In this document: positions 42,454 through 60,376 of the stretch, in pieces
How positions within the stretch are numbered: position 1 is the first letter of the stretch
Layout: each line of letters begins with the position of its first letter
Assembly: GCF_963664735.1 (NCBI RefSeq)
Contig: NZ_OY761553.1
Location: forward strand, 3,956,001-4,020,000
Direction: 5' to 3'
Source: an uncultured Cohaesibacter sp.
Lineage (GTDB): Bacteria > Pseudomonadota > Alphaproteobacteria > Rhizobiales > Cohaesibacteraceae
Length of the DNA: 64,000 bases
Program-made: the position numbers and the translations under genes
The notes under the pieces: generated by a model
The model's database searches: none
What the model was told of the DNA's origin: nothing
Seen by the model: the letters and a program-made list of their open reading frames with translations, nothing else

Positions 42454-42655
42454 ACCGTTCCTCCTAAACCGGGATAGTTCCAACGCGAAACTGAATTACT
42501 CCCCCTGGCGGCGACGCTAGTTAATAAAGTCTGAAGAGCCAAAGGAAAGTGTCTGGGAGGTCAAATCGGGGGGCTGAAATGTAGCTGTGCGTCGTTGAGT
42601 TGCATTTAGGGCTTTGCTGAAATGGCGAATCAAGGCCTTGAAATGCATGTTCTGA

Positions 42656-44374: not shown

Positions 44375-44448
44375 GAGGCGTTGATCCCCTTGATATAGCC
44401 AGATCGGTGCTTCTGCGTGCAAGCTGCAGATGGGCCGGTCGGCGCGAG

Positions 44449-45246: not shown

Positions 45247-45549
45247 GCCCAAATGAGGTTCCCCCCGCCTCCTCTTCACCACCAATCCACTCATCCTTTT
45301 GCGGGACAGTGATGTTCAAAACTAGGTCTAAATCACCATTGGGCAAAAGGATACATGTCTAATGAATTAGGTTCTAATACCTATTCATAATAGCGATTGT
45401 ATTTTATCTCAATGGGTGTTTGAGATTGTTGTGAGGCTGTGAAGAAAAAGCAAGCCATGGCATCGAATGGCAACGCAGCGCCTTGGCCGAGCCTTCCTGC
45501 ATTTGCCAATGCTGGCTTTGCCCATGAGACTATGGGGCACCGGAAAGGA
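45247..45549. other. Intergenic region between the DeoR regulator and the BtsR-like regulator
   Basis: About 300 bases separating two same-strand units. It should carry the promoter for the regulator/kinase genes. No convincing terminator of the DeoR gene was seen. Confidence 0.35.
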
Positions 45550-46350
45550 TCACTTGATCGGCTTGTTGGGTGGTTTGGCAACGACAAAGAGCTTGACGCT
45601 GTTTAGCTCTAGCTGAGTGCGTATGTCGGCCGGTGGCTGAGCATCGGTAAACAGGGCTGAAATGTTTTTGATGTGTCCCATTTCAACGGTTGCGGTGGTG
45701 CTGAATTTGGTCGAATCGGCTGCAATGAATACTTTGCGGGCAGTTTTCATCATGCTCTGAACCATGATGACTTCGTTGAACTCATAATCAAGCAATGTGC
45801 CATCGCTATCAATTGAGCCACAGCTGGTTATGAGGAAATCAACCCGGAAATGATTGATGAATTCAAGGGCGGTTGAGCCCAATATGCCGCCATTGGTGCT
45901 GCGCAGTTTGCCGCAAGGAACCATGACATTGAAGTCTGGATTCTGATAGAGGACACTGGCCACCCTCAGGCTGTTGGTGATGATCTGCAGTCCCCGTTTT
46001 TGCAACAGGTGCTTGGCGATGGTTTCTGTCGTGGTGCCAATGGAAATGAAAATGGAGCTGTTATCGGGGATCTGGGCGGCAATCGCTTCGCCAATTGCTT
46101 CCTTCTCCTCGGTTTCAGACGTCTGGCGCACCGAATAATCCAGATTGATGACACTGGAGTTTCTGGCCGCGCCACCATGATGGCGAATGAGAAGTTTCTG
46201 ATCGCTCAGTTTCTTGATGTCGCGCCGGATTGTTTGGGCGGAGACGTCGAGCAATTCGGTCAATTCCTCGACGCTGATATACCCTTTTTCGTTCACTTCC
46301 TTGAGGAGTTTGTCCTGGCGAGGATTTCCTACAATGACTGCGTCCGGCAT
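45550..46350 (-). CDS. csqR: DeoR-family regulator, CsqR/YihW-like (sulfoquinovose cluster)
   Basis: The 266-residue protein has an N-terminal helix-turn-helix (GYISVEELTELLDVSAQTIRRDI, ~20-43) and a DeoR sugar-phosphate sensor domain with IGTTTETIAKHL (~95) and TNSLRVA. From memory it follows E. coli YihW/CsqR closely, including the NPR start, the HHGGA segment and SIFISIGTT. CsqR represses the yih genes and responds to sulfoquinovose-type ligands. Start 46350 aligns with YihW; ATG 46386 is closer to AAGGAAGG and also possible. It lies 59 bases downstream of the kinase in the same direction. Confidence 0.87.
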   Translation of the reverse strand: MPDAVIVGNPRQDKLLKEVNEKGYISVEELTELLDVSAQTIRRDIKKLSDQKLLIRHHGGAARNSSVINLDYSVRQTSETEEKEAIGEAIAAQIPDNSSIFISIGTTTETIAKHLLQKRGLQIITNSLRVASVLYQNPDFNVMVPCGKLRSTNGGILGSTALEFINHFRVDFLITSCGSIDSDGTLLDYEFNEVIMVQSMMKTARKVFIAADSTKFSTTATVEMGHIKNISALFTDAQPPADIRTQLELNSVKLFVVAKPPNKPIK

Positions 46351-46409
46351 CAGGCTTCTTTCTTGACTTGCTGTTGGTGGAGCCATCCTTCCTTATCGGA
46401 CAGTCCAAT

Positions 46410-47303
46410 TCATTTTTGTGTACTGAGAAAGGCGTCTACTGTATCCAGATCCGGTATCCCCTCTCTTCCGCCGAGTTGCTGGCATTTTAATGCTGCAACT
46501 GCGCTGGCAAAACGAACGGTTTGTGCGGTTGCCATTCCCTTGGACAAGGCGAAGGCGAATGCTCCGTGAAACACATCTCCAGCTCCGGTTGTGTCCTGCA
46601 CTTTGACCTTGAATCCGGGGGCATGCTGGAGTTGGTCATCTTCTAACCAATAGCATCCGTCGGAGCCAGCGGTAACATAGACTTTACCATCGGTTTTTAC
46701 CTGAGCAATGCGTAATCCACTCAAAAGGTCATCTGTTTGTGCGAATTTTGCCAATCCAGGTTCGGAAAAAGCCACGTGGCTGGCCAAGGAGACCAGATCC
46801 GAAATGTCTTGCGGCGTAACGTCTGCATCCAGAACACTCGGAATTCCGAGCTTTTTGGCTGTTTCAAGGGCAAAAGCTGTGCCCTCGTGCCAACGAACAT
46901 CGCAAAGAACGGTCTGGAACTTTCCGAAATCAATCGATTCCATCCATTCGGTATCGCGGCTCAATGATGCGTCCTGGTAGTTTATGATCATCCGCTCACC
47001 GGCGTCATCGACCAGAATTGCAGAAAAGGATGACGTCGCGTCATGCACTTCGCGGACGAAGTGATGGCCAACACCATAATGATCAAACTCTCTAATAATG
47101 GCTGCGGCAACGTCATCGGTGCCAACCCGTCCAATGAACTCGACCGGTTGCCCCAGTTTTTTGACTGCGACAGCCGCTGTTGCGGCCGGGCCACCGCCTA
47201 TTTCGAAATAGTCTTTGGCTACAAATTTGCCGCCAGATGCAGGGAGTTTTTCAACGCGAAAGACGCGGTCGAGAACGGCGATGCCAACGCATGCTACGGT
47301 CAT
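46410..47303 (-). CDS. yihV: 6-deoxy-6-sulfofructose kinase (YihV-like, PfkB family)
   Basis: The 297-residue kinase phosphorylates sulfofructose at C1. It has the Pfk[12 protein letters not shown] motif (~36-46) and the catalytic [13 protein letters not shown] with Asp243; E. coli YihV has this Asp at 244. From memory it is similar over the whole length to YihV, including [11 protein letters not shown], the DVRWH segment (~135-139), DITPQDIS-like and AFSEPGLA, more than to ribokinases. AAGGA lies seven bases before the ATG. It diverges from the reductase gene with a 171-base control region. Confidence 0.92.
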
Positions 47304-47474
47304 GCTGTGTCCTTTAATTTCCAGTTACAGCCTGTTTCAGACTGCATAATGTCGGGTTTGGTTCTAAAATATCACCAGAAACGATCAAAAAACAATCTAA
47401 ATGTGTTGTATTTTGTCGAATTTTGTTGCAAATGTTGTATTACGATCAAATATGCTCAAGCAAAAGGTTCGAAC
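47304..47474. promoter_or_regulatory. Divergent control region of the sulfoquinovose kinase and reductase genes
   Basis: This AT-rich 171-base region must hold both divergent promoters. It has two exact copies of ACGATCAAA at 47381-47389 and 47442-47450, 61 bases apart and in the same orientation, about six helical turns. A third exact copy lies before the aldolase gene. They are candidate binding sites of the DeoR-family regulator. Confidence 0.55.
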
Positions 47475-48368
47475 ATGACGACTGTTGGTTTTATCGGTCT
47501 GGGGCAGATGGGCGCGGCTATGGCTGCCAATCTGCTAAAAGGGGGCAATCAGCTCAAGGCTTTTGACATTAGTAAGGATGCAGTAGACAAGCTGGTTGCA
47601 CAAGGGGCAACTGCGTGCAGTTCTGCTGCAGAAGCCGCTCAGGGTGCTGATTTTGTCATTACAATGTTGCCAAACGGAGCACTGGTGCGGTCTGTGCTGT
47701 TTGGTGAAGATGGGGTCACCAGTACCCTCTCCAAAGATGCGCTCGTGATCGATATGTCGACCATTCATCCACTGGAGACCGACGCCCTGATCAAGGATAT
47801 GGCGGGCAAGGGCTTTGAAATGATGGAAGCACCGGTTGGTCGCACCTCTGATCATGCGGTTGCCGGTACTCTTCTTATTCTGGCAGGTGGCAGCAAAGAG
47901 CAGATCGCCCGCGCCCAGCCGCTGTTTGATCTCATGGGATCGGAAACCGTTGATGCTGGCGGGCCAGGTAAAGGCATTCGCGTCAAGATCATCAATAACT
48001 ATATGAGCATCGCGCTCAATGCCTTGTCCGCGGAAGCTATTGCATTGTCTGAAAAAATCGGCCTCGAGTTTGATACTGCGATGTCTGTGATGGGTGGTAC
48101 GCCAGCTGGTAAAGGGCATTTTACAACGACCTGGCCAAACAAGGTTTTGGCAGGCGATCTTTCCCCGGCATTCATGATTGACCTTGCGCACAAGGATCTG
48201 GGCATTGCGTTGGATCTGGCCAATCAGGTCGGTGTTCCCATGCCGATGGGCGCTGCGTCGCGGGAGCTTTACAACATGAGCCGGGTCGCAGGGCGTGGGC
48301 GTCAGGACTGGACCGCTGTACTTGAACAGGTTCGTGCTTTGTCAGGCCTTGAAACCAAGGCCAAGTAA
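47475..48368 (+). CDS. yihU: 3-Sulfolactaldehyde reductase (YihU-like)
   Basis: The 297-residue enzyme belongs to the beta-hydroxyacid dehydrogenases and reduces sulfolactaldehyde to 2,3-dihydroxypropane-1-sulfonate with NADH. It has the Rossmann motif GLGQMG (~8-13), the signature GRTS at 122-125, which in the sulfonate-using members replaces the usual SGG-type motif, and the catalytic Lys171 in KIINNYMS. From memory nearly every block of E. coli YihU is matched, such as [14 protein letters not shown] and [26 protein letters not shown] stands ahead of the ATG; a longer frame upstream is non-coding leader. The epimerase gene follows 23 bases later. Confidence 0.93.
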
Positions 48369-48391
48369 CCAGACAGGCACGGGAGGAAAAA

Positions 48392-49447
48392 ATGGAAAAA
48401 CTTATAGAATCATATGGTGAGGTGGCAGGAAAAAATGTCGACCTCATAACGCTGAAAAATTCCCAAGGGATGACGGTTCGGGTGACGAACTTCGGCTGTA
48501 TTGTAACCAGCATCGAAGTGCCCGACAGAAACGGGAAGTTGGCAGATGTCGTGCTCGGGTACGAAGCTTTGGACCGGTATCTGGCCGGGCATCCATTTTT
48601 CGGCGCGATTGCGGGTCGGTTTGCCAATCGCATCAAAGACGGGCGTTTTTCATTGGATGGCAAGGAATATCAGCTGGAAACCAACGAGGCTCCAACCGGT
48701 CAGCATTTGCATGGTGGTGCCAAGGGCTTTGACAAATATGTCTGGGGCTATGATCTGGAAGAGAGCAAAGACGCGATTCTTGTTCATTTCCATCGCGTCT
48801 CGGTCGATGGGGAATCTGGCTATCCGGGGACGATGGTTGTTACGCACACAATCGGTTTGAGCGAAGCAAATGAACTTTGCTATGACTTCATGGCGACCAG
48901 TGACAAGCCGACAATCGTCAATCTGGTCAACCACAGCTATTATAACCTTGCCGGTCATGACAGTGGCTCTGTTGCGGGGCACGAACTGATGCTGTTCTCT
49001 GATTTCTACACGCCAGTATCAGACAATATGATTCCGACTGGTGAAATCCTGTCGGTTGAGGGCACCGGGCTTGATTTCCGCCGCCCTGTTGCAATTGGTG
49101 AGAATATGAAGAAGGTGGACGAGAGTGCCATCGATCATAATTTTATTCTCAACGGTAAAAAGAAAGATGGCGTTATGAAGTGCGCTGCCGATCTGTATGA
49201 GCCCAAGTCCGGGCGCTTCATGACAGTTTCGACAACGCAGCCAGCTGTTCAATTCTACAATGCTTTCAAGCTCTCTAACAAAGAGTGGATCGGGCGCAAC
49301 GGTTACAAATATGAAGCCTTTGGTGGCCTGTGTCTTGAAACGCAAGGCTTCCCGGATGCGCCAAATCAGCCGCATTTCCCAAGTGCGGTTCTTAATCCCG
49401 GTGAGGTCTATCACCATCACACTGTCCATCGGTTTGGCACGCGCTAG
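48392..49447 (+). CDS. Aldose 1-epimerase (GalM family), probable sulfoquinovose mutarotase
   Basis: The 351-residue protein has GalM landmarks: NFGCIVTSIEVPDRNG, the GAIAGRFANRI stretch, HLHGGAKGFDK (with His) and VNHSYYNLAGH, plus GGLCLETQGFPDAPNQ with the catalytic Glu. It interconverts alpha and beta anomers. Here it most likely acts on sulfoquinovose, the role taken by YihR in E. coli; it looks closer to ordinary GalM than to YihR. GGGAGGA precedes the ATG. It is in line with the reductase gene. Confidence 0.85.
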   Translation: MEKLIESYGEVAGKNVDLITLKNSQGMTVRVTNFGCIVTSIEVPDRNGKLADVVLGYEALDRYLAGHPFFGAIAGRFANRIKDGRFSLDGKEYQLETNEAPTGQHLHGGAKGFDKYVWGYDLEESKDAILVHFHRVSVDGESGYPGTMVVTHTIGLSEANELCYDFMATSDKPTIVNLVNHSYYNLAGHDSGSVAGHELMLFSDFYTPVSDNMIPTGEILSVEGTGLDFRRPVAIGENMKKVDESAIDHNFILNGKKKDGVMKCAADLYEPKSGRFMTVSTTQPAVQFYNAFKLSNKEWIGRNGYKYEAFGGLCLETQGFPDAPNQPHFPSAVLNPGEVYHHHTVHRFGTR

Positions 49448-49515
49448 ACTTTTATTCCAAGGGGTCAGTGTCTTTCTTGATCGAGAGACGCTGGCTGTTT
49501 TTTGGCAGGTCTCCC

Positions 49516-50259
49516 ATGTTTATGGAAATACTCGTTGTGTCTGCGATTGTTGCACTCGGCAGCTTTACGCAAGGGCTGACCGGGTTCGGGCTGGCGTTGG
49601 TCAGTGTGCCCCTTCTTTCAATGACAGTTGATGTGAAAGCCGCAGTTCCCATTGCCGGCATTTTCGGCTGGCTGGTTACTTTCCCTCTGGTTTGGAAAAT
49701 GCGCGATCATGTGCAATGGAAAAGTGGCTTGATCCTGTTTGTCGGTTCCTTGCCGGGCTCTTTTCTCGGAGCAGATCTTCTGAAAAGGCTGCCGGGCGAA
49801 GCAATCCTGATCACCATGGGGATCGTGCTGATTTTGTCGAGCCTCTATTCTCTGTTCTCGCATGCTCCGCTGTTCAAGAAAACCTCCCCTCCGATTACTC
49901 TGGGAACCGGTTTTTTCTCTGGAGCTCTGGGGGCCAGCGTCGGAGAGCCGGGGCCTCCCGTGATTGCCTATACGTCCATGCAGCCGTGGAGTGCCGATGA
50001 GGTCAAGTCGACCCTCGTGTTCTTTTTCATGTTGCAAATGGTTGGGGCAATTGCCGGATTTTGGACCAAGGGGTTGTTGGACGCCTATGTTCTGGAGCGC
50101 GTACTCTATGCGTTTCCCGCCTTTGTCGTCGGAATGAGCGTCGGAATGTTCGTCTACCATCTGCTGCACAAATACAAAATCAATTATCACGGCATCATTC
50201 ACTCGCTGCTTTTGATCATTGGCATCATGTTGGTGGTGAAAAATCTCCACATATTGTAG
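49516..50259 (+). CDS. TauE/SafE-family permease, candidate sulfonate exporter
   Basis: The protein of about 247 residues has eight or so membrane segments and the TauE/SafE repeats: GSFTQGLTGFGLAL near the start and FFSGALGASVGEPGPP in the middle. Family members export sulfite, sulfoacetate or other sulfonates and anions. Its place in the sulfoglycolysis cluster suggests export of dihydroxypropanesulfonate (inference). ATG at 49516 is taken, as it places the first membrane helix at the N-terminus; the first possible start at 49468 (GTG) has AAGGGG too close by. Confidence 0.8.
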   Translation: MFMEILVVSAIVALGSFTQGLTGFGLALVSVPLLSMTVDVKAAVPIAGIFGWLVTFPLVWKMRDHVQWKSGLILFVGSLPGSFLGADLLKRLPGEAILITMGIVLILSSLYSLFSHAPLFKKTSPPITLGTGFFSGALGASVGEPGPPVIAYTSMQPWSADEVKSTLVFFFMLQMVGAIAGFWTKGLLDAYVLERVLYAFPAFVVGMSVGMFVYHLLHKYKINYHGIIHSLLLIIGIMLVVKNLHIL

Positions 50260-50311
50260 GTTTCTGATCGAAAATTTGTGTAATAATGTTGTTTTTCGCG
50301 CAAATAGCGGT

Positions 50312-50336
50312 GAAAGCGCTTTCGAAAACGATCAAA
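50312..50336. promoter_or_regulatory. Palindrome plus ACGATCAAA motif before the aldolase gene
   Basis: GAAAGCGCTTTC (50312-50323) is a perfect 12-base palindrome of the kind bound by LacI-family regulators. Five bases on lies ACGATCAAA (50328-50336), the same motif as in the kinase/reductase control region. The pair lies 111 bases before the aldolase start. Confidence 0.55.
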
Positions 50337-50446
50337 TTTGGCTACTATAAATCCACTAACTACGATTTTTTGACATTTGCAATGTCGAGGGACTTTTCAG
50401 ATGTCGCTGCACCTTCCTTCAGGGATGGGCAAGAAGAGGTAACGAA

Positions 50447-51310
50447 ATGGCCTATATTCCCGGTACAAAACTCATCGACCGCGCATGGAAAGACGGATAT
50501 GCAATTGGCGCTTTCAGTGTTCACAACGCTGAAACAACGCGCGCGATCTTGAATGCAGCACAAGAAGAGCAAGCGCCGATCATGGTGATGATTGGTCAAA
50601 AGGTGATCAACACCATGGGGCTTAATGAAATGAAGGCGATCGTCGATGCTTTCATGGAAAATATTACAGTCCCTGTTGCTATTCATCTGGATCACAGCCG
50701 TCAGTTTGAACAAACAATGGCTGCTGCGAAGATCGGCTTCCATTCCTTGATGTTTGACGGGTCGGGTCTGGATTTCGATGAAAACTGCCGCATTACCAAG
50801 ATTGTTGCTGAGGTGGCTCATGCGCTCGGGATTGGTTGCGAGGGCGAAATCGGCAAAATTGGCGGCGTGGAAGATGACATTGCGGTGGATGAAGCTGATG
50901 CGATGATCACATCTGTTGCCGAGGCGCAGGAATTCGTCAACCGGACCAATCTTGACTATCTGGCAATTTCTATAGGCACAGCGCACGGCATGTATAAAGC
51001 CGAGCCCAAGCTGGCGTTTGACCGTATGAAGGAAATCAAGGAAATCGTCCAGAAACCGCTGGTCATGCATGGTGGTTCGGGGGTTCCTGACGAACAGGTC
51101 CAGCGCGCGATCAAGATCGGGATCGCTAAGGTCAACGTCGATACCGAACTGCGCCAGGCTTTCACATATGGCGCACAGGCTTACTGGAAAGAAAATCCGG
51201 AAGATTTTGTCTTGGCCGATTCCCTTGGGGCTGCTGAAGTTGTCATGAAAGAAAAGGTGAGGGAAAAGATTCGCCTCTTTGGTGCCAGCGGCAAGGCTGC
51301 CGATTTTTAA
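50447..51310 (+). CDS. Class II metal-dependent aldolase, probable sulfofructose-1-phosphate aldolase
   Basis: The 287-residue protein belongs to the class II fructose-bisphosphate/tagatose-bisphosphate aldolases (GatY/KbaY-like). Zinc and catalytic residues are all present: Asp82 and His83 (HLDHS), His180 (GTAHGMY) and His208 (MHGGSG). In E. coli the SFP aldolase YihT is a class I enzyme of another fold; class II SFP aldolases (SqiA type) have been described elsewhere, as I recall. It should cleave SFP to DHAP and sulfolactaldehyde (inference from context). AGAGG precedes the ATG. A terminator follows. Confidence 0.85.
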   Translation: MAYIPGTKLIDRAWKDGYAIGAFSVHNAETTRAILNAAQEEQAPIMVMIGQKVINTMGLNEMKAIVDAFMENITVPVAIHLDHSRQFEQTMAAAKIGFHSLMFDGSGLDFDENCRITKIVAEVAHALGIGCEGEIGKIGGVEDDIAVDEADAMITSVAEAQEFVNRTNLDYLAISIGTAHGMYKAEPKLAFDRMKEIKEIVQKPLVMHGGSGVPDEQVQRAIKIGIAKVNVDTELRQAFTYGAQAYWKENPEDFVLADSLGAAEVVMKEKVREKIRLFGASGKAADF

Positions 51311-51365
51311 ATTATCCTCCCTGAGCTTTCCTTCATACAGACTGAAGGGAAGCCTGCTCCTCCAG

Positions 51366-51400
51366 CCCGGCTTCCGATTTGGACGCCGGGTTTTTCTTTT
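51366..51400 (+). terminator. Rho-independent terminator after the aldolase gene
   Basis: CCCGGC/GCCGGG stem with a 13-base loop, followed by TTTTTCTTTT. A further imperfect hairpin lies at 51325-51353. Confidence 0.85.
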
Positions 51401-51609
51401 TGGGGCTTGCCAAACAAAGTTATCCAAGTTTCAAGCTGGGGCAATGTTGCCGGATTTTTCTATTGGAGCGTTTTCTGGTAGACCAATTGTTGCTAATCAC
51501 AATCAATTTAAACAAATTGGTGCGGAACAGTTTCGGGACTGAGGCGTTGATGATGCGTTGGGTTAGGCGTCTATAAAAAATCTTGTCTAAAACAGGAGAT
51601 AAACTAAGT

Positions 51610-53256
51610 ATGTCGAATGCCGCTGAGGCTGAAATTGAAGGTATTCCGGCGCCGGAAGGTGAAACGGAGCTTATTGAAACAGATTATGAAATAGGTCAGG
51701 ACAATATTGAAGGGCAGGTTGGCCCGATCGGGTTTGATATTCATAACCCGGTGTTCATGGTTTCTGCTATCGCTATTGTCGCATTTGTTTTTTATGCATT
51801 GGCTTTGCCTGAACAAGCGGCTGCCATTTTTGGCTGGCTGCGTCCGTGGTTAACATCCACGTTTGACTGGTTTATCATGGCCGCGGCCAATGTGTTTGTA
51901 TTGTTTTGCCTTTTCCTGATTGTCAGTCCTTGGGGTAACGTGCGCCTTGGTGGCACAGAGGCTGAACCCGATTTCTCCTATATCGGTTGGTTCGCCATGT
52001 TGTTTGCTGCCGGTATGGGCATCGGGCTGATGTTTTTTGGTGTGCTGGAGCCGGTTTATCATATGGCTGTGTCACATCCGCTTGGAACGCCGTCGCCTCT
52101 TGATGCGGACGGAAATATCATTCCTGAAAATGTTGAGCGGGCCAAAGTCATGGGGCTTGCTGCCACGATCTTTCACTGGGGGTTGCACCCTTGGGCTATT
52201 TATGCGGTTGTCGCTCTGGCTCTTGCGCTTTTCTCCTTTAACAAGGGGTTGCCACTTACCATTCGTTCTGCTTTTTACCCGATTTTCGGCGATCGCGTTT
52301 GGGGTTGGCCCGGACATGTTATTGATATTCTGGCGGTTTTTGCAACCTTGTTCGGTCTTGCCACGTCGCTTGGTTTCGGTGCCCAGCAAGCCAACGCAGG
52401 CCTGCATCATGTGTTTGGTGTTGAAATCAGCACCCCAGTTCAGATTCTGCTGATCACAGGCATTACCGGTATTGCGCTTTTCTCTGTGCTCAGAGGGCTG
52501 GAAGGGGGCGTCAAAATGCTCTCCGAGGTCAATATGGGCATTGCAGCCCTGTTGTTGCTGTTCGTGCTTTTCGTTGGGCCAACAGTCTTGATTCTTACCG
52601 ATTTCGGCAAAGGCATGGTTGCTTATGCTAAAGAGTTGATACCCCTGTCCAATCCCTTCGGGCGCACAGATGATGCCTATCGTGATGGGTGGACCGCGTT
52701 CTATTGGGCCTGGTGGATCAGCTGGTCACCTTTTGTGGGAATGTTCATTGCGCGCGTTTCGCGCGGCCGTACCGTGCGCGAGTTTATTGTTTGTGTGCTG
52801 ATCATTCCGTCTGTCGTTTGCGTGTTGTGGATGGCTGTTTTTGGTGGCGTGGCTATCCATCAGGTTTTGGTTGATCCGATAGCGTCTGTGGTTAAGGCCA
52901 ATGTTATCGATAGCTATAATCCGCCATTGTCATTGTTCGCGATGCTAGAGGGGTTGCCGTTCTCAGATATTACATCGGTTATCGCAATCGTGCTGGTGAT
53001 CGTTTTCTTCGTCACTTCATCGGACTCGGGATCGCTGGTGATTGATACGATTACCGCGGGAGGCAAGATTGATGCTCCTGTGCCGCAGCGTGTTTTCTGG
53101 GCGACATTCGAGGGGGCCGTTGCGATCGTGTTGCTGGTCGGCGGCGGCTTAACGGCGCTGCAAGCAATGGTAATTTCAACTGGCCTGCCATTTGCTGTCG
53201 TGCTCTTGGCGATGTGCTATGCCATCTATAAGGGACTGCAAACCGAACCGCGCTAG
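51610..53256 (+). CDS. BCCT-family transporter
   Basis: The 548-residue protein has a ~45-residue acidic N-terminus and twelve membrane segments. BCCT hallmarks are AAGMGIGLMFFGVLEP (~135) and the signature GWTAFYWAWWISWSPFVGMFIAR split over TM8 and its loop. Family substrates are betaine, choline, carnitine, DMSP and other compounds with a fixed positive charge. It sits inside the sulfoquinovose island but has its own control region behind a terminator, so its link to the pathway is uncertain. AGGAG stands upstream of ATG 51610; a TTG at 51583 is less likely. Confidence 0.92.
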   Translation: MSNAAEAEIEGIPAPEGETELIETDYEIGQDNIEGQVGPIGFDIHNPVFMVSAIAIVAFVFYALALPEQAAAIFGWLRPWLTSTFDWFIMAAANVFVLFCLFLIVSPWGNVRLGGTEAEPDFSYIGWFAMLFAAGMGIGLMFFGVLEPVYHMAVSHPLGTPSPLDADGNIIPENVERAKVMGLAATIFHWGLHPWAIYAVVALALALFSFNKGLPLTIRSAFYPIFGDRVWGWPGHVIDILAVFATLFGLATSLGFGAQQANAGLHHVFGVEISTPVQILLITGITGIALFSVLRGLEGGVKMLSEVNMGIAALLLLFVLFVGPTVLILTDFGKGMVAYAKELIPLSNPFGRTDDAYRDGWTAFYWAWWISWSPFVGMFIARVSRGRTVREFIVCVLIIPSVVCVLWMAVFGGVAIHQVLVDPIASVVKANVIDSYNPPLSLFAMLEGLPFSDITSVIAIVLVIVFFVTSSDSGSLVIDTITAGGKIDAPVPQRVFWATFEGAVAIVLLVGGGLTALQAMVISTGLPFAVVLLAMCYAIYKGLQTEPR

Positions 53257-53314
53257 GGCTATGCGGGGGGGGGCTTGCTCAATATGTTTGAGTGATGCTC
53301 GCAGCTGTGCAATA

Positions 53315-53352
53315 GAAAAAGAGGCCCGATAGCTTTAGTTGCTAACGGGCCT
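53315..53352 (-). terminator. Rho-independent terminator after the sulfoquinovosidase gene
   Basis: Minus strand stem GGCCCG/CGGGCC (extended by an outer A-T pair) with a 17-base loop, followed by CTTTTTC. It lies about 38 bases past the stop of the leftward operon. Confidence 0.75.
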
Positions 53353-53389
53353 TACTCCTGTGAGGAACAGGAAAAGATTGGGGAGCGAT

Positions 53390-55411
53390 TTAGTCTAGAT
53401 CGTCGGCTATATCGGGCAATTTGCCAAACATGACGGCATCAGCGCTGGCGCTGCGATAGAAGACTGCGGGTTTGCCGATGGGGGCGTCCACCTCAACCCA
53501 GCCACCATCATAATGCTCGCCGGACCAGATATGTATCCATCGGTCCGGAGGTAGGTATAGCTTGCGTTTGGTGGCTCCCTGCTCATAGACCGGCGCAACC
53601 AGGCAATCGCGACCCAGCAGATATTCATACATGACCTGATAGGATTCTGGTTCTTCATCATAATGCATGAAGAGAGGACGCTGAACCGGCATGCCGACGA
53701 GGTGGTTTTCCTTAACGGCGGCCATGATGTAGGATTTGAGATGCGTAAAGATGCGCGTCATTCTGGCCAGATGCGCGAGGGTTTCCATGTCGGTATCAAA
53801 CTGATGATTGTCATCAGGCCGGTTGCCTTCATGAGTGCGCATGATAGGGGTGAATGCTGCCATCTCGCTCCAGCGCATGAACAGCTCTTTATCCCGATGC
53901 ATGCCATGCAAGGTGGTGTAGCCGCCGATATCGGAATGGTGAATACCATTGCCCATGAGACCCGAGGAAAGGGCGGCGTTAATCACAGATGGTATGCCAT
54001 CATCAATGTTCCAGTTGACGCATTGGTCACCGGCCCACAGGACGTGGCAATAGCGTGCTGTTCCCGTAAAGCCGGCGCGCATGAAGAAGAGGATATCATC
54101 CGTCTTTCCGGCTTCTTCTATGGCGTCATGATTGATTTTGGCCCAGCGGGCTGGCCAATTATTGTGTTCCAGTTCCGATGACAAATTGCTGGCGAGCTTG
54201 CAGTCCGTGGGGAGATATTCCCCAAAATCGGCCATCCAGCCATCTAGACCGAAATCGATCATTTCCTTTTTGATGACCTGCTTGAACCATTCACAGGCTT
54301 CCTGACGGGTGAAGTCAACTACGCCGCAGTAAAACTCGCCAAAATCGACAACATATTTGCTGCCATCTTCTTTTGTTGCCAGATAACCGTTTTTCTCGGC
54401 CTCTTTATAGAGAGGATAATCTTCCAGAACATAGGGATTGATGTAGCCCAGAAAGCGGATGCCATCGCGCTTCATTTCATGGATCCTGGTGTCCAGTTCC
54501 GGATAGACCTCGGGGTTCCACTGCCAGTTCCACAACAGGCGTTTGCCAAAGGACGTATATTTGACCCCCTGCCAATCCTGACACCAAACCGCATTGACCT
54601 TGACCCCTGCAGCGCGCGCCTTGTGAACCTTTTCAAGGGTAAGGTCAGTGCCGCCCTGAATGCCCAGAATGACGCCATCATAAACCCACTCGGGCAATTC
54701 AGGCTGGGTGCCAAATTCGCCCATGAAGTTGCTCATCAGAGCGGGGAAGCTGTCTTCTATATCGAACAGCAGGTAGTCAGGTATCGCCCATGCCTGCAAT
54801 TCATGGAAGCTTTCGTCCCGGAAGTCAAAATCCGCATAGGCGGTGGTTTCAAGATGCGCGAAATATTTGTCGCTCGAAACAAAGGTGGGTTGAGGATAGT
54901 TGGTGTTGTAATAATCCCCACCGGCACGGTCCTTAATATCTGCCTGCCAAGTGACATAGGTTGATTTGTTACGCCCCACCCCCGGCTCTGATGTCCAGAG
55001 TGGGAAATTATGGCCGCGTAAATTCAAATAGGTCAACTGCTCGCCGCAGCCATAAATCTTCTCATCTGCATGGGCGGCAAGGCGAAGCCAGAAACGGTTG
55101 AATTCTTCTCTGGTGCTGGTGAAGCTGATTTTTAGACGCCCTTGTGGGGTTTCTTGCGCCATGAATGTGATGCAGGGATTGCCTTCAAAGAAGAACTGGA
55201 TTGAGAGGGTGCCATCCGTCTCATCTGCCGTGAAGCGGCGCATGGCGATGCGCTCGGCGACAAAGTCCTTGATGTCAAAGTTACCCCGATACATGTCGTA
55301 GGTTGCCTTGCCCTTGCCCAGAAAGAGGATCGGCTCATCAAAACTGTGGTTGAGAACGGTATGTCCCTTATGTTTTAGGGTGAATCCGGTTTCTGATTGG
55401 GTGAATTCCAT
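53390..55411 (-). CDS. yihQ: Sulfoquinovosidase (GH31, YihQ-like)
   Basis: The 673-residue glycosidase releases sulfoquinovose from its glycosides such as sulfoquinovosyl glycerol. With the start at 55411 every known YihQ active-site residue falls exactly ten positions before its E. coli number: Arg291 and Trp294 (FGKRLLW) and Tyr498 (SDIGGYT) for the sulfonate, nucleophile Asp395 (WMADFGE) and acid/base Asp462 (AGDQ). This separates it from ordinary GH31 glucosidases. No signal peptide is visible, so it is cytoplasmic. It is the last gene of the isomerase/TRAP operon. An in-frame start at 55543 would add 44 residues absent from YihQ. Confidence 0.95.
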   Translation of the reverse strand: MEFTQSETGFTLKHKGHTVLNHSFDEPILFLGKGKATYDMYRGNFDIKDFVAERIAMRRFTADETDGTLSIQFFFEGNPCITFMAQETPQGRLKISFTSTREEFNRFWLRLAAHADEKIYGCGEQLTYLNLRGHNFPLWTSEPGVGRNKSTYVTWQADIKDRAGGDYYNTNYPQPTFVSSDKYFAHLETTAYADFDFRDESFHELQAWAIPDYLLFDIEDSFPALMSNFMGEFGTQPELPEWVYDGVILGIQGGTDLTLEKVHKARAAGVKVNAVWCQDWQGVKYTSFGKRLLWNWQWNPEVYPELDTRIHEMKRDGIRFLGYINPYVLEDYPLYKEAEKNGYLATKEDGSKYVVDFGEFYCGVVDFTRQEACEWFKQVIKKEMIDFGLDGWMADFGEYLPTDCKLASNLSSELEHNNWPARWAKINHDAIEEAGKTDDILFFMRAGFTGTARYCHVLWAGDQCVNWNIDDGIPSVINAALSSGLMGNGIHHSDIGGYTTLHGMHRDKELFMRWSEMAAFTPIMRTHEGNRPDDNHQFDTDMETLAHLARMTRIFTHLKSYIMAAVKENHLVGMPVQRPLFMHYDEEPESYQVMYEYLLGRDCLVAPVYEQGATKRKLYLPPDRWIHIWSGEHYDGGWVEVDAPIGKPAVFYRSASADAVMFGKLPDIADDLD

Positions 55412-55568
55412 CTTCTTATCCAATGCCACTCTGTGCGCGGATCCTGTCTCTGTGACGGTTCTATACGCGCAATGGACCAAGCAATGCTGGGGGAATGTTG
55501 TCTGGGGCAAAGGGGCTGGTATGTCGCCCCTTTGCTTCTTCATGGATCAAATGGTTGCCATGAAATCC

Positions 55569-56621
55569 TTATTTCTCTTCAACAGCGTAGGAGCTGTCGA
55601 TGGAGGTTTCGCAGTTTTTGATTTCGCCCTTGAAGCGGTCCAGCCATGCTTTCCCGTCATCTCCGGATTCTTTGATAAACCAGTCGAGAACAGGAGCGGT
55701 TGCTGCCTGGAAGGCCTTTTTCTCTTCTGGTGTCGGGGTGTAAATGGTGCCGCCTGCCTTGCGGAAAGTTTCGTAGGCGTCGAATTCTTTCCATTTGGGA
55801 TAAACACGCAGGAACTGGTTTTGGGCAACGATACCGTCGATTACAACGCGTTTCAGTTCTTCTGGGAAGGATTTGAAGCGGTCATTATTCATGACCCAAA
55901 CGCCGCCCATATAGGCATGCCCATCGAGGATGATATATTTGAGGCTTTCCTCAAACTTCATGGTGGTAATATCGACGATGCCGTTTTTGGTGCCGTCAAC
56001 GACGCCGGTTGACAAAGCGGTGTAAACTTCAGGCCATGCAATTGGTGTTGGTGCTGCGCCGAGTGATTTGACGAGTTCTTGCTGAATAGGGGCCGGGACC
56101 GTCCGCAACTTGAGGCCCTTTACATCATCAGGAGTTTTGACCTGCTTGTTGGTGGTTGCAATGTTGCGCCAGCCGCCAGAGTTGGAGATCATCATGACCC
56201 GAATGTTGCCGGTTTCCTTGAGGACATTTTCACGAATGTCTGAGAGGAGCTTGTCATTGTCATATACACATTCGGCTACCCTGTCGTCGCGCAGCATATA
56301 TGGCAGATCGAAGGCACCCATTGGTGTCCAGTAGTTTGCCAGCTCGGAAACGGTGGTTGCGAAATAGTCGAACATGCCTGACTGCACGCCGGAGAGACAT
56401 TCACGGGCGGTGCTGCATAGCTGTCCGCTAGGATAAATGTCGACTTCGATCTTGCCGTTTGAGTGGTTTTCTACGAAATTTTTGAAAACCAGAAGGGACT
56501 GATGGTTGTAGCTGTCAATCCCGGTTACATGGGGCACAGTCAATTTATATTCTGCGGCCTGCGCACCTGCACAAAGGAAGCTGCTTGCCAGAAGTGCCAA
56601 ACCAAAAGCTTTGATATTCAT
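55569..56621 (-). CDS. TRAP transporter substrate-binding protein (DctP type)
   Basis: The 350-residue periplasmic protein has a signal peptide (MNIKAFGLALLASSFLCAGAQ split at residue ~20, ending AQAA) and the DctP fold: IYPSGQL, a SELANYW region and GLKLRTVP with the conserved substrate-anchoring Arg. TRAP receptors bind organic anions, mostly carboxylates but also sulfonates such as taurine. Located between the membrane subunit genes and the sulfoquinovosidase, its ligand is likely sulfoquinovose or sulfoquinovosyl glycerol (inference). GGAGG stands ahead of the ATG. Confidence 0.9.
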   Translation of the reverse strand: MNIKAFGLALLASSFLCAGAQAAEYKLTVPHVTGIDSYNHQSLLVFKNFVENHSNGKIEVDIYPSGQLCSTARECLSGVQSGMFDYFATTVSELANYWTPMGAFDLPYMLRDDRVAECVYDNDKLLSDIRENVLKETGNIRVMMISNSGGWRNIATTNKQVKTPDDVKGLKLRTVPAPIQQELVKSLGAAPTPIAWPEVYTALSTGVVDGTKNGIVDITTMKFEESLKYIILDGHAYMGGVWVMNNDRFKSFPEELKRVVIDGIVAQNQFLRVYPKWKEFDAYETFRKAGGTIYTPTPEEKKAFQAATAPVLDWFIKESGDDGKAWLDRFKGEIKNCETSIDSSYAVEEK

Positions 56622-56700
56622 AAGTTACCTCCCAGGTAAACGTGTTGCCGAAGGCTCGTTCTCCTCTTGAGACCGTCGGCTTCCTCCAAAACAAACCCGC

Positions 56701-57990
56701 TCACATCATGCCCAGAAGCTTAGGCAAGCCAATTACCAGCGGCGGGAAAAATGAAATCAGGAAGATGACCAGGAATTCCGCACCAAGGAACGGAAGGATA
56801 GCTCTGGAAATCTTCTGCAGTGGTACACCGGACACGCCGGATGCAACGAAGAGCACAAGGCCCATTGGCGGGGTCGCCAGACCAACCGAAAGATTGACCA
56901 CCATGACGACGCCAAAATGTACAGGATCGATGCCGACATTGATCATGATCGGGGCCAGAATTGGTGCAAAAATCAAAATTGCGGGGCCTGCATCCAGGAA
57001 CATGCCAACGACGAACAGGAAGCAGTTCATGACAAAGAACAGCAAGTAAGGATTGCGGGTGACCGAATAGAAGAAGTCATTTACTTCCTTGGAAATGCCC
57101 GACAGGCTGATCGCTGCGGCGAACCCACTTGCTGCAGCCACGATGATCAGGATGGCACCAGCATTGACCCCAATGCGGATAAACATCGGGAAAACATCTT
57201 TGAGTTTCAGGATGCGCATGATCATGACTGACAGAATGAAAGCATAGAGCACGGCAACTGCAGCAGCTTCGGTGGGGGTAAAGATGCCGCCATAGATACC
57301 ACCAAGAATGATGACCGGGGTTAGCAAAGGAAGGATAGCAGCTTTGAAGGCGCGACTTCTCTCCTCTTTTGTGGCCCGTTCAAACTGCTCGACCTGCGGA
57401 TATTTCTTGATCTGCCAACGATTGACAATCATAAGGGCGACACACATCAGCAGACCCGGCACAATCCCTGCGATGAACATCGCTGCGACGGATGTATTCA
57501 TTGCGAAAGCGTAGATCAGCATAATGCCGCTCGGTGGAATGATTGTTCCCAGAACCGTGGCTGCTGCGGTAATCGCTGCAGCATAGGTGCGGTCATACTT
57601 GTAGCGCTCCATTTCCGGGATCATCATGTTGCCGATAGCTGACGTGGCAGCAACCGCAGACCCTGTCAAAGCACCGAAAAGGGTGGCTGCAATGATCACC
57701 ACATGCCCCAATCCGCCGCGCATATGCTGCACCTTGGTCTGGGAGAAGGCGATGATACGGTTGGTGATGCCGCCGTTGACCATGAATTCACCGGCGAGCA
57801 TAAAGAATGGCAATGCAAGCAACAGAAAAACATCTAGCCCGGTATAAAGCCGCTGGTAGAGCAGATTCATGAAAAGAATCTTGTCAGCCTGGAACAGGGC
57901 GATCGCAGGAGACAAACCCAACGCAAACAGAACGGGCAAGCCTACAAACAGTAAAATGAGAAAATATATGGCAAAGACTGGAGAGACCAT
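56701..57990 (-). CDS. TRAP transporter large permease subunit (DctM type)
   Basis: The 429-residue protein has the DctM layout of about twelve membrane segments with landmarks GALTGSAVAATSAIGNMMIPEM split over one loop, IPPSGIMLIYA and TEAAAVAVLYA. It forms the Na+-driven translocation path together with the small subunit encoded 27 bases upstream. It is in the operon isomerase - dctQ - dctM - dctP - yihQ. Confidence 0.92.
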   Translation of the reverse strand: MVSPVFAIYFLILLFVGLPVLFALGLSPAIALFQADKILFMNLLYQRLYTGLDVFLLLALPFFMLAGEFMVNGGITNRIIAFSQTKVQHMRGGLGHVVIIAATLFGALTGSAVAATSAIGNMMIPEMERYKYDRTYAAAITAAATVLGTIIPPSGIMLIYAFAMNTSVAAMFIAGIVPGLLMCVALMIVNRWQIKKYPQVEQFERATKEERSRAFKAAILPLLTPVIILGGIYGGIFTPTEAAAVAVLYAFILSVMIMRILKLKDVFPMFIRIGVNAGAILIIVAAASGFAAAISLSGISKEVNDFFYSVTRNPYLLFFVMNCFLFVVGMFLDAGPAILIFAPILAPIMINVGIDPVHFGVVMVVNLSVGLATPPMGLVLFVASGVSGVPLQKISRAILPFLGAEFLVIFLISFFPPLVIGLPKLLGMM

Positions 57991-58017
57991 AACAGATTTC
58001 CTTTTATATCCTTCACC

Positions 58018-58545
58018 TTATTCAGGTTTCAGCGCTTCTTCGGCAGGGTTGTAATGAATGAGCATGCGCAGCTCGGAGATGATCTTCTGCAATGCGGAAA
58101 GCAGAGTTATGGTCATCATCAAAGGGGGAGCTATGTAGATCACGTTCATCTTGATCGGCAGACTGTCGGCTGAGCTTGTGCCGCGCAGGAAGAAGTCATA
58201 ACCAAACTTGATCCAGACCAGAAAGGTGAGGATGGCAAGAATGTGGATTACGATCATTACCAGATGGCGAATCCGCGTGCCATGCAATGCATCCAGCATA
58301 AATGTCATGGCAATGTTCTTGTCCTGAAGATAGATGAGGGGCAGGCACAAATAGGTCATGTAAATCATGAGGAAGCGCGATGCTTCGTCTGTCCAGCTCA
58401 AAGGCATATTCAGAATATAGCGAAACAGAACCTGAACAAGAACGATCACGGTCATGACCACCAGCATAACGCCGCCAACCCAGCTGCCGACCTTGCCTAA
58501 AGGTGCATTTATGGCGTTGAGGCCTTTTTCTATTACTGCCAACAT
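58018..58545 (-). CDS. TRAP transporter small permease subunit (DctQ type)
   Basis: The 175-residue protein has four membrane segments and the DctQ motif LSWTDEASRFLMIYMTYL near residue 50. It pairs with the DctM subunit. The start at 58545 gives the usual short N-terminus; an in-frame start at 58596 adds 17 residues not normal for the family. 72 bases separate it from the isomerase gene upstream. Confidence 0.9.
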   Translation of the reverse strand: MLAVIEKGLNAINAPLGKVGSWVGGVMLVVMTVIVLVQVLFRYILNMPLSWTDEASRFLMIYMTYLCLPLIYLQDKNIAMTFMLDALHGTRIRHLVMIVIHILAILTFLVWIKFGYDFFLRGTSSADSLPIKMNVIYIAPPLMMTITLLSALQKIISELRMLIHYNPAEEALKPE

Positions 58546-58617
58546 TATTTTAATCCCGTTTGAAATAAGCCCGATTTCATGGGCACTTGGCGGCAAATCG
58601 CCAAGTGCGTTGGCTCA

Positions 58618-59964
58618 TCAGGTCAACTCGACCACTTCGATGCCGAGGCGCTTGGCTATTGCGCGAAGAACGGGGCGGTGTTCGCCGTAGGTCAACGCAG
58701 TGTGGTGCTCCAAACCTTCCGTGATCATGCGATCAAGAAATTGGGCGACCGGAATGTCAGGCTTTGCCGTGCCCGCCGTGCCAGAGAAGGCGAGCGGGGC
58801 CTTGATCATTTCAGCTCCGGCCAAGACAAGGCGCAGTTTTTCATGGCCTTGAGAGAAGCGGGCGATCGTGATCCTGCCCGGTTTCAGTGCAAATTCCGAC
58901 AGCAGAGGCAGTTTCCGGTTGGAATGAATCGTGCCTTGTATCGGCTGGTCACGGTCTGCCATATCAATCGGAGCTTGACCGCAATGCCAGAAGACAACTG
59001 TGTTGTCTTCAAGATTGACATCAACCATATCTGTATTGAAGACGCTGCCACCGGATGCATTTTGCAAAATGACCGAGGTCATGACGCCGAGCATATCGGC
59101 CTCACAGCCCCCCGGGGTGTGATCTTCGTTCAGCAGTGCAAGAGCGCCACAGGCTGCGCAGCCATATTCGGTGAAGAAGTCGGGCCAGCACCGGACTGCG
59201 ATGCCTTTGTAGCCTTTTTCGTCAGCATCCTTGCGCAGCTTTGAATAGACCTTCAGGGTTTTGCGCGTTGCATCCTGATCCAGTTCGGCAAGGTTCGGGA
59301 AATCCTTGGCTCTGCGTTCATAGGGAGCATCTGCGACGTCGTCTGGCAGTGCCTTGACCTCGTTGATGAAATCCAGAATTGGAGTCTGGTCAACTTCAAC
59401 TCCGAACTTCTCCTTGAGCTGCTCTGCCTTGAAGTTGCAAGCATCGAAGCCATCGGGATGATGGCCGACGAGTTTCATTTTGGCACCCTTGAGGTCGTTG
59501 ACAACGGCGCCAGCGCGCGCAAGGCACATCAATTGCTCTTGAGCTGCGGTGCTTTGTGGGTGATCATGGATATATTCTATGCTCAGATTGTTGCGGCTGA
59601 GCGCGTGGCTTGCCAGATTAACCCCGCAAAATGAGTTCAGGCGCAAACGGCCCCCGGTTCTTTCCTCAGGAAATGACCAGAGAACCAGTGGCGCATCGAT
59701 CGCTTTTCCCAGTTCAACGGTCATGGTCGCATCGGTAAAGGTAACTTGAAGCAACAACAACATGTCGAGCTTTTGCTTTTTGAGCGATGGCAATACAGCT
59801 AATACAGCGTCGGCATCAAACAGAAGCTCTGGCTTCCCTATCAATTCAATGTCAAGTTTCTCCAGGCTTTTCCATGCCTTGGACAAAATTTCTTCTGCAT
59901 AGGGAACGTCAAAAGTCGGCCTGCCGAGCGCAACGACACCGACGCATGGTCTTTTTACGGGCAT
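58618..59964 (-). CDS. L-fucose/L-arabinose isomerase-family protein, candidate sulfoquinovose isomerase
   Basis: The 448-residue protein has the FucI/AraA-type fold: an N-terminal VGVVALGRPTFDVPYAEE, a middle LLLLQVTFTDATM, CWPDFFTEYGCAACG and a C-terminal GGSVFNTDMVDV and FWHCGQAP, with the Cys/His/Glu/Asp residues expected around a metal site. Family members interconvert aldoses and ketoses. The cluster has no YihS-type (AGE-fold) isomerase, so this enzyme is the candidate for sulfoquinovose to sulfofructose conversion (inference). It heads the five-gene operon and has a very strong GGAGG site. The start at 59964 is clear. Confidence 0.82.
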   Translation of the reverse strand: MPVKRPCVGVVALGRPTFDVPYAEEILSKAWKSLEKLDIELIGKPELLFDADAVLAVLPSLKKQKLDMLLLLQVTFTDATMTVELGKAIDAPLVLWSFPEERTGGRLRLNSFCGVNLASHALSRNNLSIEYIHDHPQSTAAQEQLMCLARAGAVVNDLKGAKMKLVGHHPDGFDACNFKAEQLKEKFGVEVDQTPILDFINEVKALPDDVADAPYERRAKDFPNLAELDQDATRKTLKVYSKLRKDADEKGYKGIAVRCWPDFFTEYGCAACGALALLNEDHTPGGCEADMLGVMTSVILQNASGGSVFNTDMVDVNLEDNTVVFWHCGQAPIDMADRDQPIQGTIHSNRKLPLLSEFALKPGRITIARFSQGHEKLRLVLAGAEMIKAPLAFSGTAGTAKPDIPVAQFLDRMITEGLEHHTALTYGEHRPVLRAIAKRLGIEVVELT

Positions 59965-60376
59965 CTTATTCCTCCACAATCCTGTCACCGCTGCTGCCTG
60001 GTTGATTGGTCCAAACCAATTCAGGCCGATATCTCCCATATCGTGGATGACAGAAATTTCGTTACCGATCACAATAAGTCGATAAACGCTCAGCTACTAT
60101 AAGTAAAAGCACGCAATAATGATCATTTCACACAAAAAAGATCAATTTCGCAATCAAAAATGTTTGTTATTTTACATTTTTGCTCAGGCGGCGCCCTGCG
60201 TCGTGAAATGGAGAAGGATTTGATCAGTCTACTTTTGAACGTCAATGGGTAAAACTAGACATTCTGCGATTAATGATCTTGGGAGAGCTATTTGCAATCT
60301 TTACGACGTGCTGGCTCTGGTTTGTTGGGGGAGGGATGGCGGTGCTTAAATATTTTCTAACAGAAGCTCGCTAAGA
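59965..60376. promoter_or_regulatory. Control region of the isomerase/TRAP/sulfoquinovosidase operon
   Basis: About 410 bases between divergent genes. It has looser forms of the cluster motif: CCGATCACAA at 60065-60074, AATGATCATTTC at 60118-60129 and AGATCAATTTCG at 60139-60150, in a very AT-rich stretch. They may be regulator sites. The promoter of the rightward polymerase-like gene must also lie here. No gene was recognised. Confidence 0.45.

Follow-up and report, generated by a model that had tools for sequence, protein, structure and literature searches.

A probable CsqR-regulated hybrid sulfo-EMP1/2 cluster for sulfoquinovose breakdown in Cohaesibacter, with TRAP and TauE transport genes

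A stretch of 64,000 nucleotides from a Cohaesibacter genome (positions 3,956,001-4,020,000 of a single 4.94 Mb contig; hereafter the window) contains a run of genes that raises two questions: does it encode a whole route for the catabolism of the sulfosugar sulfoquinovose (SQ), as an earlier note on this DNA had proposed, and does it represent a new variant of the sulfoglycolytic Embden-Meyerhof-Parnas (sulfo-EMP) pathway? We found that the segment 45,550-60,072 holds the full set of SQ catabolic genes as intact open reading frames (ORFs) matching the families named in the note, confirming it as a complete SQ catabolic cluster (Table 1). Very probably it is a CsqR-regulated hybrid sulfo-EMP1/2 cluster that would turn an SQ glycoside into 2,3-dihydroxypropanesulfonate (DHPS). 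Read along the map, a DeoR regulator gene and a PfkB kinase gene (both minus strand) are followed on the plus strand by genes for a HIBADH-type reductase, a GalM-type epimerase, a TauE permease, a class II aldolase and a BCCT transporter, and then, all on the minus strand and transcribed in the reverse order, by genes for a GH31 glycosidase, DctP, DctM, DctQ and a FucI-like isomerase.

Table 1. Features of the SQ gene cluster in window coordinates; functions are predicted.
Feature	Position	Strand	Basis
CsqR-like DeoR-family regulator	45550..46386	-	52% to E. coli CsqR
Sulfofructose kinase, YihV orthologue	46410..47303	-	55% to E. coli YihV; PF00294
Divergent promoter region, two ACGATCAAA copies, candidate CsqR sites	47304..47474		
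3-Sulfolactaldehyde reductase, YihU orthologue	47475..48368	+	68% to YihU; NF012005
GalM-type aldose epimerase, probable SQ mutarotase	48392..49447	+	PF01263 274 bits
TauE/SafE permease, probable DHPS exporter	49468..50259	+	PF01925; 9/9 congener clusters
sqiA upstream region, one ACGATCAAA	50260..50446		
Class II sulfofructose-1-phosphate aldolase, SqiA	50447..51310	+	68% to Yersinia frederiksenii SqiA
BCCT transporter, not a conserved island member	51583..53256	+	PF02028
GH31 sulfoquinovosidase, YihQ orthologue	53390..55543, likely start near codon 46	-	54% to YihQ
TRAP solute-binding protein DctP	55569..56621	-	PF03480 212 bits
TRAP large permease DctM	56701..57990	-	TIGR00786 415 bits
TRAP small permease DctQ	58018..58596	-	PF04290
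SqvD-type SQ isomerase	ORF 58618..60072, likely start near 59,964	-	64% to Yersinia SqvD

When 16 window proteins were compared with nine proteins of the E. coli K-12 yih region, the regulator, kinase, reductase and glycosidase emerged as orthologues of CsqR, YihV, YihU and YihQ (52, 55, 68 and 54% identity, respectively), as the note had held. No match to YihS, YihT, YihO or YihP was obtained at E<=1e-3, in keeping with its view that isomerase, aldolase and transporters come from other families. The locus thus resembles the E. coli yih cluster in these four orthologues and in a divergent control region with ACGATCAAA, but differs in the four missing proteins and in a GalM-type epimerase that replaces YihR. 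By homology, an isomerase, a sulfofructose 1-kinase, a sulfofructose-1-phosphate aldolase and a sulfolactaldehyde reductase lie in a single cluster, as in any sulfo-EMP route, and the isomerase and aldolase are of the SqvD and SqiA types, standing alongside a YihV-type kinase as in hybrid sulfo-EMP1/2 clusters. The YihS plus YihT pair of the canonical E. coli route is absent. The sulfo-EMP2 clusters of Firmicutes (Bacillus/Alkalicoccus urumqiensis, Megamonas) share the SqvD and SqiA types and the intermediates (PMC9594981; this and other papers are cited for the parts of their text available to us), but they use the PF00365 kinase SqiK, whereas the island kinase belongs to PF00294.

From these assignments we infer the following route. 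DctPQM, a tripartite ATP-independent periplasmic (TRAP) transporter, would import SQ or its glycerol glycoside; a cytoplasmic YihQ-type sulfoquinovosidase would free SQ, whose anomers the GalM-type protein would interconvert; SqvD would isomerize SQ to sulfofructose, for phosphorylation to sulfofructose-1-phosphate by the YihV-type kinase; and SqiA would cleave this product into dihydroxyacetone phosphate, for growth, and sulfolactaldehyde, which the YihU-type reductase would convert to DHPS for export by TauE. Family searches revealed no aldehyde dehydrogenase among the island genes. DHPS breakdown via Xsc was considered and set aside, no Xsc scoring over the cut-off in the genome (this search covered Xsc, and not HpsN/HpsO/HpsP, SuyAB or further routes). 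Together with an island reductase that exceeds its curated cut-off, these two negatives point to DHPS as the end product.

The earlier note had staked its reading on the kinase and reductase grouping with YihV and YihU rather than with ordinary fructokinases and hydroxyisobutyrate dehydrogenases. Loci for comparison came from two sources. A GTDB genome scan with an SqvD alignment gave 523 relatives, of which the best 80 loci, congeners included, were examined. Independently of SqvD, 397 genomes of the phylum were searched with the kinase; 34 matched at E<=1e-50, own included, and the regions of 16 of the 33 others were examined. The best solved structure for the kinase was the sulfofructose kinase 7ag6 (349 bits), ahead of the next chain (183 bits) and the best ribokinase (93 bits). 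A tree was built of 69 PfkB rows, among them 43 full-length locus kinases, 11 of 12 own-genome paralogues and 8 of 19 congener loci; in it the kinase and E. coli YihV share a 17-row clade (support 100/98). This clade is nested in one of 53 rows (100/100) that excludes the five E. coli kinases RbsK, FruK, KdgK, PsuK and YdjH and eleven own-genome paralogues, several rows outside it having long branches. The kinase thus sits with YihV and away from the ribokinase and fructokinase rows. Congeners also carry PfkB paralogues with 38-40% identity to the kinase of the island (L013-L022, L033), the copy of L033 adjoining a YihT-like aldolase (28%); five of this set were placed in the same tree and fall within the 53-row YihV-side clade, and another (sulfo)sugar may be their substrate. 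The reductase, whose start at 47,475 corrects the mechanical ORF start at 47,043, scored 491.7 bits against NF012005 (sulfolactaldehyde 3-reductase, NCBIfam; cut-off 348) and 437 bits against structure 6sm7. It reached 421 bits to YihU as opposed to 149, 141 and 105 bits to GarR, GlxR and LtnD (30-35% identity), so that here too the outcome that would have spoken against the note was not seen. Its tree has outgroup branches of great length and resolves poorly, and the YihU assignment rests on the pairwise scores.

Of the remaining enzymes, the isomerase, aldolase and glycosidase retain residues expected of their assigned activities. For the isomerase, no solved chain was matched by sequence at E<=0.001. 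The AlphaFold model (predicted local distance difference test score, pLDDT, 94.8) retrieved AraA 4f2d (E 7.3e-28, TM 0.84) and FucI 1fui (E 1.2e-16) with Foldseek, and E288, D312, H420 and H421 are invariant in 62 aligned sequences (the window and 61 of the 77 loci retained from 80, three having been lost to length or a split frame). E288 and D312 are spaced by 24, as are E337 and D361 of FucI. The predicted structure thus has the AraA/FucI fold with a putative Glu/Asp/His metal site whose ligands were assigned by spacing rather than geometry. The aldolase scored 426 and 419 bits against 8q57 and 8q58, compared with 230 bits for the next structure; we take 8q57-8q5a to be the SqiA structures of Sharma 2023, and the 579 bits of the Yersinia frederiksenii SqiA (from a hybrid locus) to 8q57 fit this assumption. 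It is 40% identical to KbaY and retains the equivalents of KbaY Asp82, His83, His180 and His208, the three histidines presumably being the Zn ligands. It is thus nearer to SqiA than to fructose- or tagatose-bisphosphate aldolases. The GalM-type epimerase, merely 25% identical over 240 residues to E. coli YihR, shares 51-55% identity with its homologues in the hybrid loci of Yersiniaceae and is a probable SQ mutarotase, judging from sequence and context. The glycosidase scored 984.5 bits against NF007746 (PRK10426, a model annotated as alpha-glucosidase; cut-off 553) and retains the equivalents of Q288, R301, W304, D405, D472 and Y508, which we take to be the catalytic Asp pair and the SQ-recognition Gln, Arg, Trp and Tyr of YihQ.

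That SQ is not the main substrate, and that the island degrades another sulfosugar such as sulfofucose by the same chemistry, appears very improbable indeed. The isomerase gave 290 bits over nearly the whole of NF048012, the model of the characterised SftI family, far under its equivalog cut-off of 700, and all 62 aligned SqvD members match this model at E<=0.001 (a few of them also show weak matches to AraA or FucI models). Clusters for other sulfosugars do exist, as for sulfofucose in Paracoccus (PMC12421959). However, that route is described as of the Entner-Doudoroff type, with other families and with no isomerase activity found in the part of the account available, and in the window every SQ-recognition residue checked is retained by the YihQ-type GH31 and the kinase groups with E. 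coli YihV.

Conservation within the genus bears on the unity of the cluster. The kinase is present at 69% identity or more in 9 of 17 other Cohaesibacter genomes, and in all nine it is accompanied by reductase, GalM, TauE, SqiA, YihQ, TRAP and SqvD (the last confirmed in loci L024, L026, L028 and L029), a recurrence which argues that the clustering is not due to chance. The regulator is complete beside the kinase in eight of the nine; in the ninth it is represented by a 28-residue start (82%), the remainder of the stored sequence being N, and elsewhere that genome has just more distant DeoR proteins (at most 39%). Two Pseudovibrio loci (L056 and L093, the latter a draft with split frames in the cluster) show the order csqR-yihV / yihU-galM-tauE-sqiA-sqvD-dctQMP-yihQ, without BCCT. 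The SqvD type is rare in the class, matches at E<=1e-10 being found in 12 of 387 genomes, own included, with identities of at least 36% in seven of the others (those of split matches taken from a separate comparison). Consotaella salsifontis has two SqvD copies (L064, L065), both 61% identical and each beginning at a contig end.

The earlier note counted three transport systems in the island: TRAP and TauE are indeed conserved with it, but BCCT is not. TauE permeases are known from Arthrobacter SQ clusters (PMC8873060), and the window homologue is a probable DHPS exporter. By eye, the N terminus of DctP is signal-like and none such is evident in YihQ; the sulfoquinovosidase is therefore probably cytoplasmic, in which case SQ glycosides would have to be taken up by the importer. 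The genome encodes 31 DctM homologues, of which one besides the island copy is 85% identical (at 4,055,787) and the rest at most 40%. Yet a DctM of at least 45% lies in 32 of the 80 SqvD loci, and DctM proteins encoded close to SqvD in gammaproteobacteria (Woeseia, Exilibacterium), Desulfobacterota and SAR324 reach 49-55% to island DctM, which favours co-inheritance of the TRAP genes with the SQ genes. The 85% copy belongs to a second DctQMP set (9160-12217 of L179, G000:C1:4046000-4065900; DctP 80%). A second SQ locus there was rejected, only the TRAP genes matching within 20 kb; next to them are encoded a thiamine-pyrophosphate enzyme, an aminotransferase, a protein resembling M48 peptidases and two proteins that match no Pfam family. 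No TRAP importer for SQ was found in the literature searched, where the one match concerned taurine respiration; as this search did not extend to what Liu 2021 and Sharma 2023 show in their figures, we do not claim the TRAP variant as unpublished.

BCCT was discarded as part of the island, being absent from all nine congener clusters and found in none of the 80 SqvD loci (16 of them under 12 kb). That it nevertheless serves as a third transporter of the pathway, for instance in DHPS export or import of an SQ derivative, is suggested by its place within the island between sqiA and yihQ. We consider this highly unlikely: orthologues (84-87%) occupy other genomic sites in six congeners, the island being present in three of them, the best NCBIfam model is one for glycine betaine uptake, under its cut-off, and other genes fill the same slot in L052, L028 and L030. 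This slot (window 51311-53389) is variable in the genus. Read by eye, it holds a LysR-like gene and membrane proteins in L052 (11625-15239) and L030 (16565-18521) and another membrane protein in L028 (16463-17890), and is nearly empty in L024, L026, L027 and L031.

How the cluster might be controlled is suggested by the regulator and the intergenic regions. The regulator scored 288 bits to CsqR against 83-100 for AgaR, YgbI and YdjF, and it retains all ten of the CsqR positions that PMC10991401 lists as ligand or linker residues, including R75, R150, N153, S176, E193 and K215. The internal start Met25 is replaced by Ile; this Met is present in close CsqR homologues of branch B1 and absent in Vibrio (PMC10991401). 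The window protein combines the equivalents of Asn153 and Ser176 with the lack of Met25, whereas the available text of the same paper reports both residues only in homologues with Met25. E. coli CsqR binds the yihU/yihV spacer according to genomic SELEX (PMC8249747), and no contact site within the spacer was found in the available parts of PMC5816610, PMC8464067 and PMC10991401. The 9-bp ACGATCAAA occurs exactly in 19 of 31 yihV/yihU spacers, among them that of E. coli, and with at most one mismatch in 24, including those of E. coli and Yersinia, in all 24 in the same orientation with respect to yihU, and is a candidate CsqR operator on these sequence grounds. As it was chosen after inspection of the window, neither the window nor the congeners can test it independently; the Enterobacterales spacers do so, although they are not independent of one another. 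Of five occurrences of CGATCAAA in the 64 kb, three lie within the yihV/yihU and sqiA upstream regions, and the GATCAAA core recurs upstream of sqiA in three of nine congeners (L024, L027, L031). Long inverted repeats or shared words were rejected as operators, as the yihV/yihU spacer and the region upstream of sqvD share no 18-mer with up to four mismatches, and promoter and terminator scans were near chance (12 versus 14.3 and 21 versus 17.8). Beside the island (window 41023-45294) lie genes for a CstA-type transporter, a 5TMR-LYT histidine kinase and a LytTR response regulator, which we take to resemble BtsSR and a pyruvate transporter; this system is probably independent, since it adjoins the cluster in only three of nine congener loci (L023, L025, L030).

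Is the combination new? The note had presented it as a distinct sulfo-EMP variant, a claim that the literature does not support. SqvD in place of YihS and SqiA in place of YihT are described for hybrid clusters such as that of a Yersiniaceae bacterium (PMC9594981) and for Hafnia paralvei and Serratia fonticola (PMC10991401, which also places sulfo-EMP2 genes near csqR in Alphaproteobacteria), and hybrid sulfo-EMP1/2 combinations are reported across Proteobacteria and Actinobacteria (PMC12890257, citing Sharma 2023; Liu 2021 and Sharma 2023 on the Yersiniaceae/Hafniaceae hybrids are known to us as cited in PMC9594981 and PMC12890257). Like the window, the Yersiniaceae/Hafniaceae hybrids have csqR and yihV divergent from yihU, along with SqiA, SqvD, a GalM-type epimerase and YihQ. 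They differ in gene order, sqvD-TRAP-yihQ forming a separate opposite-strand run in the window, and in transport, YihO/YihP or two YihP-like genes serving where the window has DctPQM and TauE. Among the loci we examined, nine of Serratia, Yersinia and Chimaeribacter have csqR, yihV, yihU, sqiA, GalM, sqvD and yihQ, the enzyme set of the window, with YihP plus YihO or two YihP-like genes as transporters. In Vibrio mediterranei AbY-1905, an SqiA hybrid has been demonstrated by growth, DHPS formation, proteomics and an isomerase knockout (PMC13372026); as proposed for the window, SqiA works with E. coli-type sulfo-EMP enzymes and DHPS is the product. In the main text of that paper no mention of a transporter, permease, tripartite system or exporter was found.

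The 16 regions of the kinase search comprise four with YihS and YihT (E. coli-type), one with YihT and one with SqiA, both without an isomerase in view, two with YihS, SqiA and TRAP (L161, L162), and eight more distant ones, three of which have an SqvD relative (25-41%). L161 and L162 combine YihV, YihU, SqiA, CsqR and TRAP with a YihS (67-69%) where the window has SqvD; L162 has TauE and GalM as well. Ten such genes are present in L162, the isomerase gene being the fifth, which would match the ten-gene Vibrio mediterranei cluster if the locus tags of the latter step by five. L162 is thus presumably a Vibrio; if it is of that type, TRAP, TauE, GalM and CsqR would also be shared with the window. 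That the window defines a new sulfo-EMP variant by a new replacement set is unlikely, even though the exact set of SqvD, SqiA, YihV, YihU, TRAP and TauE in Hyphomicrobiales was not found named in the available parts of the literature searched, nor anything on SQ in Pseudovibrio or Cohaesibacter: the replacements themselves are published, and mainly transport genes and gene order set the window apart from the nine enterobacterial loci. As the enzymatic mosaic is already known, the kind of cluster is known too, and the window, differing from the Yersiniaceae form mainly in transport, adds a member with a TRAP/TauE transport module.

Several observations weigh against the reading of the locus as a CsqR-regulated SQ-to-DHPS cluster with its own importer and exporter. 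With the isomerase so far under the SftI cut-off, the SqvD substrate is read from the neighbouring genes, and those of TRAP and TauE are read from position; with 31 TRAP permeases in the genome, one near a catabolic cluster is unsurprising in itself. In 48 of the 80 SqvD loci no DctM of at least 45% is in view. Seven of the 31 spacers (both of Pseudovibrio, L061, L161, L162, L167 and L168) lack the ACGATCAAA site, having two mismatches to it, and YihQ was not found in L161 and L162 at the thresholds used.

The 80 SqvD loci and the kinase trees also bear on the direction of change. YihV of at least 38% occurs in 45 of these loci, SqiA of at least 50% in 13 and a YihT-like protein of at least 24% in 25, with YihS and BCCT in none; these counts, like that for DctM, are lower bounds owing to the 16 short loci. 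In a 36-row kinase tree, the window groups with the other members of its genus, with Pseudovibrio and with L161/L162 in a single clade (98/95), and the Enterobacterales rows with SqvD plus SqiA and with YihS plus YihT are interleaved, some forks being weak. The E. coli-type rows have SqvD plus SqiA loci to either side of them, and all eleven outgroup rows (drawn from the 43 locus kinases, for this tree and the reductase tree alike) have SqvD. It is possible, and we put it forward tentatively, that the hybrid is the older proteobacterial form, that it took up SQ or SQ-glycerol through a dedicated TRAP importer still retained in lineages as far apart as Cohaesibacter, Desulfobacterota and SAR324, that YihS and YihT are later replacements, and that YihO and YihP are later arrivals. 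Because the outgroups were collected through SqvD, a derived E. coli set is no more than a lead, and five of the eight distant loci from the unbiased kinase search have no SqvD in view. In metagenome-assembled genomes (MAGs) of Desulfofustis, Desulfobulbaceae and Desulfosarcinaceae (L066, L068, L069, L073, L076), SqvD occurs with a YihV-like kinase (43-46%), TRAP genes and, on the opposite strand, a divergent SqiA-like aldolase (37-39%). We take these to be sulfate-reducer families, in which SQ use is possible. SqvD and a YihV-like kinase are also present in MAGs of SAR324 and a further unclassified one (L082, L084, L085, L089, L091), in some cases together with TRAP genes and an aldolase resembling YihT.

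The locus adds three things to the published hybrids: it recurs in 9 of 17 congeners and in Pseudovibrio, relatives of its TRAP permease adjoin SqvD in phyla far from its own, and it has a 9-bp candidate CsqR site in common with E. coli. Marine Hyphomicrobiales (Cohaesibacter, Pseudovibrio) thereby join the likely producers of DHPS from SQ, the common ACGATCAAA motif offers a short candidate CsqR operator from E. coli to Cohaesibacter, and the TRAP-type importer is a candidate for a widespread entry route for SQ, an abundant sulfosugar of plants and algae.

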